From Haliclystus octoradiatus (lineage: Eukaryota > Cnidaria > Staurozoa > Stauromedusae > Haliclystidae): a DNA stretch of 64,000 nucleotides. The DNA lies in contig OU744448.1 in NCBI GenBank assembly GCA_916610825.1, positions 31,208,107 through 31,272,106 on the forward strand, given 5' to 3'. Positions 46,938 to 51,204 of the stretch are shown here, piece after piece (positions within the stretch are counted from its first letter, which is position 1; each line of letters begins with the position of its first letter). The translations under genes were made by a program, and so were the position numbers. The notes below the pieces were generated by a model, which had not been told where the DNA came from, ran no database searches, and worked only from the letters and a program-made list of their open reading frames with translations.

Positions 46938-47727
46938 TTGTGCTATGTGTATAGATTTTATATTAAACAATGCCTGTTTCTTATAAACAAACCAATACGT
47001 CACAAAATAATTTATTCGAACCCATTCGGGATATTTTCTACAATGTCTCTGACATGGAAAATATTGGGAAGCTTTCTATAGGCACTTTATAATATTCGTA
47101 AAGTCTAAAAATCGCTATGACGCTATTGAGCCTACACGCAGACGTAAAGGGAACACTGAATAGTATTTTTGGTCTGCATGCAGGCTGCTCGATAGTCGGC
47201 AGCTCCTGAAGTTTCTTTACAGCCAATCCCGAGCGTTCTTGCATCCAGACCCCAATTTGAAAAAGTGTGAAAACGAAAAGCTCAGTCAGTTTACGAATTT
47301 TACTGTTTTACCATGGTTTTACAAACTGAATTCAACTACAAGTATTTGTTTCCCCGATACATAAGGAACGTTTAGCCTACGATGAAAGTAATAAAATGAT
47401 GTACTGCGATATCACAACAACTTATCACTGGAACGAATTCTTTAACTTTACCATTCAAAACGAAATATGGTTTGTTTTTCTACTTGCTCTGAACATGCGA
47501 GATTCGGTGAAATGTTTTGGCGGTCATGGTCAATACGTATTTTACGACATCGTACTCTCTCTCATCCATTTTTCTGAGAAGTGGACATGTTACAGGTAAG
47601 TTTATTTGCTGTTTTCTTTCAATTGCTTCTTTAAATCAACAAGACTTATGTTGCTGCTATGGCACTGCTGCAATACTATACTAGACTATTGAACTTGGAA
47701 GATATCATTGCTAGCTAATCCACCATC
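46938..47727. other. Flank between satellite array and TTAA transposon
   Basis: Sequence is less AT-rich than the array. Short frames on both strands (for example minus 47038-47244 and plus 47396-47599) have no recognised motif. I cannot assign it to either neighbour. Confidence 0.35.
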
Positions 47728-47905
47728 TTAAAGTGCCTATGAAATGAAAAAATGGGTATTGAGGTTTTTACAGATTATGAATCTGCATGTTCGACATAGT
47801 ACCATGGCAATATTTTTTTATGAAAATTTTAAGTAAAATGTATCTTTTTCGCATCGCAAACATGATGCATTTTGGGGACAAGCGCCTGGGCACTAATTTA
47901 GATGT

Positions 47906-47927
47906 CGTGACGTCAAGAGTTGTACAC
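47906..47927 (+). promoter_or_regulatory. CRE-containing subterminal motif, left
   Basis: TGACGTCAAGAGTTGTACAC (with CG before it) contains the palindromic CRE TGACGTCA. The same 22 nt occur in mirror orientation at 50987-51008. It is 174 nt from the left end of the transposon and 80 nt upstream of the P2X7-like start codon. It may be a promoter element, a transposase-binding site or both. Confidence 0.6.
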
Positions 47928-48007
47928 ACGATTTTTCATACAAGCAGACACGAAGGCAAGAGAGAAAACATAGTAACTTTGTTCTTCTTTATTCCAACAA
48001 AAAAACA

Positions 48008-49141
48008 ATGTCTGGTATTGATTCTTCGGAAACAAACTATGAATCGGAAATCAGTTCATCAAATGAAGAAATTTCAACTGCCACACAGCCATACCAAGGT
48101 GAACCACTTGCTATGAGCACTGAATTTAGTGGCGAAGAATGCAACCAGGAAGAAGACGCTGACAATATTCCTCAGCAAACGCTAGAGGCAAGATTTGAAG
48201 GGAAAGATCCTGACAGTGCTTGGTAAGTAGTCATTGCAATATAATAAAAGCTGCTGTTGGGTTTAAGTTGTATGGGGTTTTCGAGTATGATTAATGACAA
48301 CGCTATATGTCTACATGAAATCATATTCACAATTTCCTCTACTCGATGAAGTAGACCTACTTGTTCGCCCCAATTTACATCAATATTTTGCGTATAGGCT
48401 ACATGTAAAAAGTAAATTTTCTTTCCTGTACTCATCTGGATTAGGTCTGAAGCAATCTTATCACATTTTAATTTTTAGGTGCGAATGTAGTAGTTGCCAT
48501 AATGAGTTGTTGATTGGAGCACTGGAGTACCGATGTTGTCATGAAGCCCTACCTGCAATTGGAATGCTGATGTTCGATGGTAACCCTGAAAAGCTGCTAT
48601 GTATTACCCAACACAAGGACTATACTGCTCTGATAAATACCACAGTTCTAAGGACTGCGGCCCCACTATTGAGGGATCGCAATGGGAGAAGTTATAGAAG
48701 GAATACAAAGCAAACTGAAAATGAGTAAGTTCTATTATAATTCACAGATAATAGAAACGAAGATAATGGTCAGTTGATTTGAATGCCGTTGATAAAGCTT
48801 CAAAATATTTTCATTGATAAAATCTCAATTATATACACGCAAATATGAAATGTAGGCTACCATAATAAAGTTAATGTAGTAATGTTTGTTTATTTACTGT
48901 TCATATAATGCTGTTTACATGAAAAATTCCTAAATCAAAAATAATTTTTCAAACATTTCATTGACTGATCTTTCACAGATTTCTTAGAGCTGTTTCCTAC
49001 CGATGGCTTATCCGATGGTTGTGTGGGTCGCTTGGATGGGACAATTCGAGACCGCTACCGGCATGTATATACCACAGTATACGAACGAAGTTTGGTAATG
49101 GTGGGATGCACGGCTACCTAGCTGCAACAAAGAGACTGTAA
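48008..49141 (+). CDS. P2X7 intracellular (ballast) domain-like protein
   Basis: Complete three-exon gene: 48008-48222, 48479-48724, 48979-49141; 624 nt, 207 aa, canonical GTAAGT donors. Residues 1-71 are acidic and low-complexity. From W72 the sequence follows the P2X7 C-terminal domain. There is a cysteine cluster WCECSSC (72-78) and YRCCHE (89-94), then CITQHKDYTALINTTVLRTA (113-132), and a last exon with YRWLIRWLCGSLGWDNSRPL and PACIYHSIRTKFG. In vertebrate P2X7 this domain binds zinc and guanine nucleotide; there is no channel part here. AATAAA at 49197-49202 is a likely polyadenylation signal. The gene lies wholly inside the TTAA transposon, convergent with the THAP gene, so it is probably element-encoded. 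Function in the element is unknown; DNA or RNA binding by the Cys cluster is a guess. Confidence 0.88.
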
Positions 49142-49317
49142 ATATATTGTTTGTATAAATATCTCACACTCCTGTAAAAAATATACGGCATAAAAAAATA
49201 AAAAATTAATATTCAAGAAAATGAAAACCACTCTTTCTATCACAAAGCAAATGTAGGTCTATACATACAATACCTTCCTAAACACACGACCCAATTTTAT
49301 GACCTTTCCTAGGTTTA

Positions 49318-49543
49318 CCGCATGATCTGCACATCGGTGCCTTTCGAGTGGAAGTAGAAGTGCTGTTTACAACTTGCTGACTTTGCGATTCCTTCTCTGC
49401 CGCCAATGGTACCAATTGTGGTCATACTGACCTTGGGATTTTCTCTCTTACACCGAAAACAGAACATAGCAAACAAATTAAATAACATAGAATAAAAAAC
49501 AATGAATTTTGGTTGGTCTTCAACAGGAGTATCAGCATCGACC
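49318..49543 (-). pseudogene. Transposase middle-exon remnant (KFIVFYS motif)
   Basis: After an acceptor (TTTCTGTTGCAG) the minus strand encodes VDADTPVEDQPKFIVFYSML followed by FCFRCKRENPKVSM and more cysteines. The order 'KFIVF-S-L--LF--C--C' is one I associate with THAP-containing transposase-like proteins of invertebrates. Its reading phase does not match the upstream exon end, and the preceding exon has stops. I therefore take it as a decayed part of the THAP transposase gene. No catalytic region follows. Confidence 0.5.
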
Positions 49544-49856
49544 CTGCAACAGAAAGAATATACAAAAATAATCAATCAATGAATCCTAGGAATGAAACAA
49601 ACCTACAAGTACTGGTATGCCCACAAGTGTAAAGGTCATTGGCTACTTATCTTCCACAGCTGATACCTAGGACATTGCCATATCTGAATATTTAAAGTTC
49701 TGAAATAGATACCCCAAAAATTTTCAAGACTATGAGAAGTTACCCTCAATAATTGGCAAGTGCCGTATGCAAGCCATTTGGAGTTACCCCCAGGGGCTAT
49801 CAAAATGCCTCTTACTTCACACTATTAATTGTTTCTTATTTCTCGTCAGTATCATT

Positions 49857-50960
49857 CTAGTCTATGTCTTTGTGTTCATCTATTTTGAAATCCTCGTCAC
49901 TATCAATACAATGTTCGTCATCACTGCCCTCGTAGTATGTATCGGCATCCTCAATGGTTGTGGGAACGTGTGCAGGCACGCAATTGTCATGCAAAGTTGC
50001 CTACACATAAGTAATTTCATATTTAAAACCCTAAATGTGTACAAAACACTTCAGTAGAGACATAAATTACAGATTAAATTAGCAGTTAAATTTTAATGTT
50101 ACTAATGCATGTACTTACATGACTCACACTTTCGAATCTAACTTTCAACTGCCTGATGGAATTTTTTAATCTGTAGTTTGCCTTAAGAAGGTTTCTTCTT
50201 TTTATTGACAACTGTTGACAACGTTGGCAATTATTGTTTGATGACACCTTAATATGCTGTTGGACCAAAGACGATGCAGAAAGAATTGGACTAGTACACG
50301 AGGGTTCTTTATCAGGTATAGAGGTTTCCATGTGAGTTGAACATGGTGACTCAGGCAACTCTGGTTTCACAGGAGGACAGTCTTCAGACTTTGTAGAAGC
50401 AGGAATCAAGGAAGAACCACAAAGTGCATTTCTGATAATCTGAAGATTTTTATATTGCATATTATAATTATTTATCTGCCTGGATTTAAGTTGTAATATG
50501 TATAGTAACAAGTAAAACCTGTTCATAATTTGTGTGGCAAGTCCTAGGTCTGTCTTTTTTCACGTTTTGATACGTTCTTACTTTCCACTGTAAAACTAGA
50601 ATCAGTATGAATAGTTGGAACAGCTCCAAACTGAAGACGTATCTTTTTAGGTGGAGAACAAACCAACGATTCAGGCATATCGGTCAATGATATATCTTGA
50701 CGCCGAACAAACGAAGTAGGCTCAAAATGAACGGAGCATAATTGAGAAGTTGGAGAAGGGACAAAATCACTACGATGAACCTTCACGAAAGCCGTCCATA
50801 ACCTGTTTGCTTCTTTATTCTTCGGGAAAGTATGCAATGAAATGCCCTTTATACCTGTTTTGTTTGTACAACTAACCTGGTTTGCAACACCTGCTACGCA
50901 GTATTTGCCCCCTCTTTGACTAGAAGTAACCTTAACCATAGGATTAACTCCGTCCGCCAT
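49857..50960 (-). CDS. THAP-domain protein, probably N-terminal part of a Kolobok-type transposase
   Basis: Proposed exons (transcript order): 50582-50960 (donor GTAAGA), 50119-50381 (donor GTAAGT) and 49857-50000, ending at TAG; 786 nt, 261 aa. The first exon holds a full THAP zinc finger. It shows YCVAGVANQVSC, ISLHTFP, a conserved W (LWTAF), LCSVHFEPTSF and finally GAVPTI, equivalent to the family's AVPTIF box. The second exon is Ser/Pro-rich and ends in a basic coiled-coil-like stretch (KRRNLLKANYRLKNSIRQLK). The third is acidic (EDADTYYEGSDDEHCIDSDE). Whether TAG at 49857 is the native end or a lesion is unclear; another transposase-like exon follows at 49318-49543. The acceptor of exon 2 could alternatively lie near 50445. 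It starts 27 nt from the mirrored CRE motif. Confidence 0.7.
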
Positions 50961-50986
50961 GCTTGCTTAGATCTCTTGTTCTGCTT

Positions 50987-51008
50987 GTGTACAACTCTTG
51001 ACGTCACG
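50987..51008 (-). promoter_or_regulatory. CRE-containing subterminal motif, right
   Basis: Inverted copy of the 22-nt motif at 47906-47927, 27 nt upstream of the THAP start codon and 192 nt from the right transposon end. Next to it, 51013-51020 reads ATTTGCAT, the consensus POU/octamer site. Confidence 0.6.
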
Positions 51009-51204
51009 CGCCTCATTTGCATAATCTGACCGCGTAAAAAGTGTCCCTCGAAATGTAGCGAAAATGCCGACTTTAGGCAATAAAAAGGTAGGTTAAAATG
51101 TGTTTGTTTAAAAAAATATATATATCATCGGAATCAGCGTAAAAAACTCTACAATAATATGTGAAAACCTCAATACCCATTTTTTCATTTCATAGGCACT
51201 TTAA

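Follow-up and report, generated by a model that had tools for sequence, protein, structure and literature searches.

The ballast domain of P2X7 was followed through the genome of the stalked jellyfish Haliclystus octoradiatus, starting from a transposable element in a 64,000-nucleotide stretch of DNA (the window) on the 35.87-Mb chromosome 3. The genome measures 262 Mb in 33 contigs, and the assembly, jrHalOcto1.1, has been described as nine chromosomes in 33 scaffolds (PMC9975415). The results support the view that in this genome the domain has spread as a transposon protein, KolX, the second gene of Kolobok DNA transposons, because all 13 genomic loci matching the Pfam family P2RX7_C were convergent to Kolobok sequence within 4 kb. 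The element itself (window 47732-51200), in which KolX and the stub of a THAP transposase face each other, is, judging from its sequence, very probably a non-autonomous Kolobok transposon of the KolX-bearing kind. That the ballast domain exists as the Kolobok protein KolX and was later captured by P2X7 is already in print (Kojima and Bao 2022; PMC9587614). What appears to be new here is the census within a single genome, together with an N-terminal exon rich in cysteines that one group of KolX genes possesses and a TGACGTCA palindrome beside both promoters.

The ends of the element were as an earlier annotation made from the letters of the window (the sequence-only reading) had described them, with 37 nucleotides (nt) of identical inverted repeat bordered by a duplicated TTAA (Table 1). 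The inverted repeat reaches 51 nt at 96% identity. In a genome-wide DNA search, at least 123 pieces of the genome matched the element. A 28-nt end pattern, allowing up to 3 mismatches, occurred 69 times in forward and 65 times in reverse orientation, compared with 0 and 0 for the reversed control, and these counts together place the element far beyond chance. Twenty-four copies, namely the window copy, L009-L030 and L033, were available end-to-end with their flanks read, and form the set to which the counts of KolX intactness, selection and motifs refer; a split copy (L031 and L032) and the partial or divergent loci L034-L044 lie outside these counts. TTAA was present on both sides of 23 of the 24 copies and ATAA on both sides of the other, the flanks differed, and AG...CT termini were observed in every copy. 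When the joined flanks of the 24 copies were compared with those stretches of the genome that had been read, one match was obtained, a paralogous stretch near L009 that carries a single TTAA. A scan of L031-L064 for TTAA-flanked inverted ends returned only L033 and L043, most of the divergent loci being too short for both ends. At L043:3437-3998 lies a 562-bp TTAA-flanked miniature whose ends, and whose sequence on the THAP side, are nearly those of the element. The split copy (C5:18047296-18058656) is interrupted by an insertion of about 8 kb with a simple-repeat-rich stretch.

The complete, spliced P2X7-tail-like gene predicted by the sequence-only reading was recovered. The KolX gene of the window has three exons with GT-AG at every junction and encodes 207 amino acids (aa), and the product scored 27.6 bits against P2RX7_C (PF20478; E 3.3e-6), above the curated cut-off of 23.5. 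The seven zinc cysteines (C73, C75, C78, C91, C92, C113 and C183) were invariant in all seven aligned sequences, P2X7 included, and W72, R157, Y161, R162, W167 and other invariant positions were also kept in the window protein. Identity to two P2X7 fragments was 31% over the aligned part. A search of the PDB at E up to 1 returned no P2X7 chain, the single match (E 0.28) being to an unrelated protein, and on this basis the window-family KolX is placed as a distant relative of P2X7. The gene was intact in 11 of the 24 copies, and broken or deleted in 13.

For the convergent THAP gene the outcome was mixed. A THAP domain (PF05485) was present on the minus strand with an E value of 4e-12, its AVPTIF box reading AVPTIH, one letter off. 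The frame is broken, however, and the idea that the THAP gene is complete in this copy was rejected. As the frame stops after 138 codons, and the parts downstream are remnants of a deleted transposase, the THAP gene of the window is a broken transposase stub and the window copy an internal-deletion derivative. An uninterrupted counterpart was found in L033, a complete copy of 5,523 bp, for which a nine-exon, 848-aa open THAP-DDE transposase was modelled on the minus strand. It comprises, in order, the THAP domain, a coil-like region, an acidic exon, GDGRFD, SDRHKG, DIWHV and CLEGFHATLNHW, and its motifs include EGFHATLNHW. The pattern DDD/E plus C/DxxH was recognised in L033 by motif only (GDGRFD, SDRHKG, DIWH and CLEGFH) and is absent from the window copy. 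L033 carries about 1.9 kb of extra sequence (880 plus 1,008 columns relative to the majority) that is wholly or largely missing elsewhere; the copies without DDE are 3.2-3.7 kb long, with gaps at the DDE core, and the three acid motifs occurred as exact strings in L033 alone among the 24.

The TTAA target, the AG...CT termini and the THAP-DDE transposase of L033 identify the family as Kolobok, in agreement with the assignment made by the sequence-only reading. A THAP domain, DDE and a TTAA target have been described as characteristic of Kolobok transposons (PMC6004289), for which RR...YY termini are a rule (PMC9587614); the TTAA duplication, 5'-RR and YY-3' termini, THAP domain and DDE motifs (the latter in L033) were all found here. 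So was one mark of the Kol0 group, a second gene KolX with a ballast domain. According to Kojima and Bao (2022; PMC9587614), KolX belongs regularly to the proteins of Kol0 elements in several groups of animals and adopts the ballast fold; P2X7 is the product of a fusion with it, and nanor is likely a domesticated KolX. The present elements resemble Kol0 of the Kolobok-1_XT type (PMC9587614) in TTAA, RR...YY ends, a DDE transposase with DxxH and a seven-cysteine KolX; they differ in coming from a new species and class (Staurozoa do not appear in the main text of that report) and in that most copies are DDE-less deletion derivatives. With Xenopus Kolobok and its T2-MITEs they share THAP and DDE, AG termini, and TTAA with occasional ATAA, and there too the non-autonomous copies were attributed to transposase acting in trans (PMC6004289). 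The main text of the Xenopus report names neither KolX nor P2X, whereas the defective Haliclystus copies keep KolX. The ballast of P2X7 and the nanor-like ZCD proteins belong to the same Pfam family and have the same seven zinc cysteines, but KolX is here a separate transposon gene with no channel attached, unlike P2X7 (PMC7016195). The ballast domain was described across animals in Rump 2020, whose main text contains no word beginning with "transpos"; a ZCD protein from a tick is mentioned there, with a further domain given as "TAHP", which may stand for THAP (PMC7016195). A literature search, with supplementary files and Repbase outside its range, returned no report of the cysteine-rich KolX exon, the TGACGTCA repeat or the window family.

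Several groups of copies bear on how the family moves. Six copies (L017-L022) differ at 0-2 positions in 3,619 bp, occupy six sites with different flanks, and have the THAP frame broken at the identical codon; near-identity combined with a shared break indicates that they multiplied after losing their own transposase. L011 and L012, in which part of KolX is deleted, show no mismatch and one gap between them and lie at two different sites, and L027 and L028, in which KolX is broken, are identical at two different sites. The sequence-only reading had asked whether other copies of the terminal repeat hold the P2X7-like gene. Thirty-seven end pairs were built among the 100 ends listed of 134, and among these a KolX match was present in 24, so that ends never accompanied by the gene were not the outcome. 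No KolX match was found in the other 13 listed pairs, and 11 of the 13 contained a diverged THAP remnant with stops. Copies lacking an intact transposase or KolX have thus multiplied, and neither gene is needed in cis. A requirement for KolX in cis was rejected, both on the KolX-defective copies that multiplied and on the 13 pairs without a match. A second set of elements of about 3.4 kb was also noted (for example C4:31683307-31686750, C5:19320308-19323682 and C7:7520615-7524067). These share the ends of the family but have no KolX match, and their THAP remnant is diverged and recurrently interrupted by TAG stops. They may represent an older non-autonomous family for which the same transposase provided the movement.

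The mechanism proposed starts from a complete element such as L033, in which a three-exon KolX and the nine-exon THAP-DDE transposase lie convergent between TTAA-flanked AG...CT ends. Internal deletion has removed the DDE core from the window copy and from 22 of the other 23, KolX being kept in various states. An L033-like transposase would use its THAP domain to bind the ends that all copies share, and would mobilise the defective ones in trans, inserting them into TTAA by cut-and-paste. It is quite possible, if somewhat short of probable, that KolX is an accessory protein of this transposition, a zinc-ballast protein binding DNA or the transposase. It too would be supplied in trans, as copies with KolX deleted or broken multiplied as well.

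The core-less copies might alternatively be kept as THAP-only repressors of the transposase, with KolX as a co-regulator, in the way that KP elements repress the P element transposase. All copies but L033 (23 of 24) lack the DDE motifs yet keep the THAP end. The THAP frame could be scored in 20 of the 24 copies, its start not being found by exact search in L011, L012, L016 and L025, and besides L033 only L010 and L030 had a frame extending to the coil; L011 and L016 also contained long THAP frames (272-292 aa). In the remaining 17 scored copies, however, among them the window copy and all six of the burst, it fell short of the coil. The THAP variants were also near neutral (27 nonsynonymous, 15 synonymous and 0 stop, compared with 29.4, 11.4 and 1.2 expected). 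Repression is therefore considered improbable as the reason for which these copies are kept, and the reading of deletion derivatives moved in trans is retained.

Two groups of KolX genes were distinguished. Those of group A (window, L053 and L054) have three exons and an acidic N-terminus, and those of group B (L045-L052) have the ballast within one exon; both keep the convergent layout despite the different exon structure. A group B KolX matched P2X7 chains of the PDB with an E value of 4e-8, and group B is, by this search, a closer relative of P2X7 than the window KolX. At seven of the eight group B loci (not L052), the ballast exon is preceded on its own strand by an exon of the pattern C.C...C...SGK..GCPCKDA...C...C.CG, as at L049:957-1100 and on the minus strand of L048 at 3357-3208. 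L045 and L051, and likewise L049 and L050, are near-copies, so that the seven loci represent five kinds, and the exon is degenerate in L046 (stop) and L047 (frameshift). In the three loci read in detail (L045, L048 and L049), a short charged exon follows. The cysteine spacing resembles that of a CXC domain. The exon had no Pfam or PDB match, and no group B exon was among the 44 matches to PF03638 (CXC / TCR) at E up to 10. Tentatively, and with considerable doubt, KolX may assist Kolobok transposition as a cofactor that binds DNA or chromatin, and in group B it would consist of a CXC-spaced cysteine module, a charged exon and the ballast. Some of the PF03638 matches lay in long frames of recurring size, at C5:25995530, C10:6123098, C10:16072131 (696-698 aa) and others, as if other mobile elements carried a CXC domain.

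Among the 13 P2RX7_C loci of the census, nine lay near a match to the DDE segment of L033. The other four (C2:22600103, C2:26065030, C8:4321206 and C8:13679168) were recognised by a tail piece only, a homologue of the frame adjoining KolX in those group B elements that have a DDE match; this piece has no Pfam name and was assigned to the transposase by position and strand. The survey of neighbours that the sequence-only reading had called for therefore came out in its favour in this genome, as did its proposal that the domain was spread with Kolobok transposons as a second gene. The window family is outside the 13 loci, presumably missed since its domain is split over exons. In a wider collection of 60 KolX-like clusters, 43 had a transposase, THAP or end match no more than 8 kb away and four more were assigned by the tail piece; the rest were three with an end match and 10 unassigned short fragments (up to 64 aa). 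No free-standing host copy of KolX was recognised among the 13 P2RX7_C loci, and as all 13 adjoin Kolobok sequence, a host-gene origin within this genome was rejected. Domestication of KolX as a host gene at some loci would be suggested by the four tail-piece loci, where there is no DDE-segment, THAP or end match nearby. All four nevertheless have the convergent tail-piece homologue within 2 kb, and the ballast frame is open at C8:4321206 only, being interrupted by stops at C2:26065030 and C8:13679168 and broken at C2:22600103, which makes domestication here very improbable.

Selection on KolX was compared within and between families. In the 24-copy set, 38 nonsynonymous, 10 synonymous and 5 stop variants were counted, compared with 37.0, 13.8 and 2.3 expected without selection, and the window and L033 genes differed by 6 nonsynonymous and 1 synonymous changes. 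Between families, the nonsynonymous divergence (dN) was 0.22-0.56 and the synonymous divergence (dS) was 2 or saturated in all seven pairs. These values indicate purifying selection on KolX between families and drift within the window family. The contrast between neutral drift in defective copies and conservation from family to family suggests that complete elements depend in some way on KolX, although it is not needed in cis. That the ballast gene is a host gene taken up by one transposon family as passive cargo is scarcely credible, for although the drift within the window family and the 13 copies with broken or deleted KolX would suit it, it is opposed by the selection between families, by two KolX groups of different exon structure in one convergent layout, by the Kolobok sequence beside all 13 P2RX7_C loci (four by tail piece only), and by the standing of KolX as a regular Kol0 protein in several animal groups (Kojima and Bao; PMC9587614).

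A number of points weigh against the interpretation of a KolX-bearing Kolobok family moved in trans. The evidence for movement consists of copies, duplications and flanks, and no transposition was seen directly; the empty paralogue of the L009 site has a 17-bp gap beside its TTAA. The affinity to Kol0 is based on KolX and motif features and not on a tree of the DDE core. The splice models of KolX and the transposase were built on GT-AG signals and homology rather than on RNA, and in the L033 model one splice acceptor was re-chosen to keep the frame. Within the family KolX shows no selection, so its copies are uninformative on the role of the protein, and the dN and dS values between families come in part from damaged loci (L046 and L047).

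The subterminal inverted repeat of the element (Table 1) contains TGACGTCA, and its left arm lies 80 bp upstream of the KolX start codon. TGACGTCA was present in all 24 copies, at a distance of 160-177 bp from the left end and of 200-204 bp from the right, and a 22-nt core was exact on the left in 22 copies and on the right in all 24. The remaining 60,490 bases of the window contained TGACGTCA once. Among the 20 loci of other Kolobok families (L045-L064), it was found in six (L049, L053, L057, L058, L061 and L062), where by coordinates it lies upstream of KolX or THAP starts; of the other 14, several stop short of a gene start, and some reach one and have no TGACGTCA. The palindrome may serve as a shared promoter site or, alternatively, for binding inside the element.

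Table 1. Features of the Kolobok element, in window positions
Feature	Position	Strand	Remark
Left target-site duplication, TTAA	47728..47731	.	flank reading
Left terminal inverted repeat, 37 nt, starts AG (5'-RR)	47732..47768	+	identical to right end
Subterminal inverted repeat, 23 nt, holds TGACGTCA at 47908	47906..47928	+	100% complementary to 50986-51008
KolX exon 1	48008..48222	+	GT donor
KolX exon 2, six of seven ballast zinc cysteines (CECSSC ... RCC ... LCIT)	48479..48724	+	
KolX exon 3, seventh cysteine (PAC) and stop	48979..49141	+	
Transposase remnant without catalytic core, in which a deletion has fused the start of DDE exon 3 to sequence downstream	49318..49575	-	
Transposase exon 2 remnant (acidic)	49860..50000	-	
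Transposase exon 1, second part (coiled-coil-like), out of frame with THAP part in window copy	50086..50559	-	
THAP domain of transposase, 138 codons to premature stop	50544..50960	-	Pfam match
Subterminal inverted repeat partner, TGACGTCA at 50999	50986..51008	-	just upstream of THAP start codon
Right terminal inverted repeat, ends CT (YY-3')	51164..51200	-	identical 37 nt
Right target-site duplication, TTAA	51201..51204	.	flank reading

Two further observations were made outside the element. An open frame at window 47330-47599 stops close to a GT donor, about 130 bp before the left end of the element, and the insertion site may be inside an intron of a host gene. The mitochondrial COX1 gene was a single open frame with TGA read as tryptophan.

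The census provides an independent, within-genome confirmation, in an early-branching animal, that the ballast domain of P2X7 lives as a Kolobok protein. No function of KolX was found in the passages of the literature consulted. As one family has moved very recently and an open transposase is present, Haliclystus octoradiatus offers a source for studying that function. If KolX is indeed a DNA- or chromatin-binding cofactor, the ballast of P2X7 would represent the C-terminal half, now orphaned, of a transposon protein that handles DNA, and its zinc- and nucleotide-binding surface could be tested as a former protein- or DNA-contact surface.

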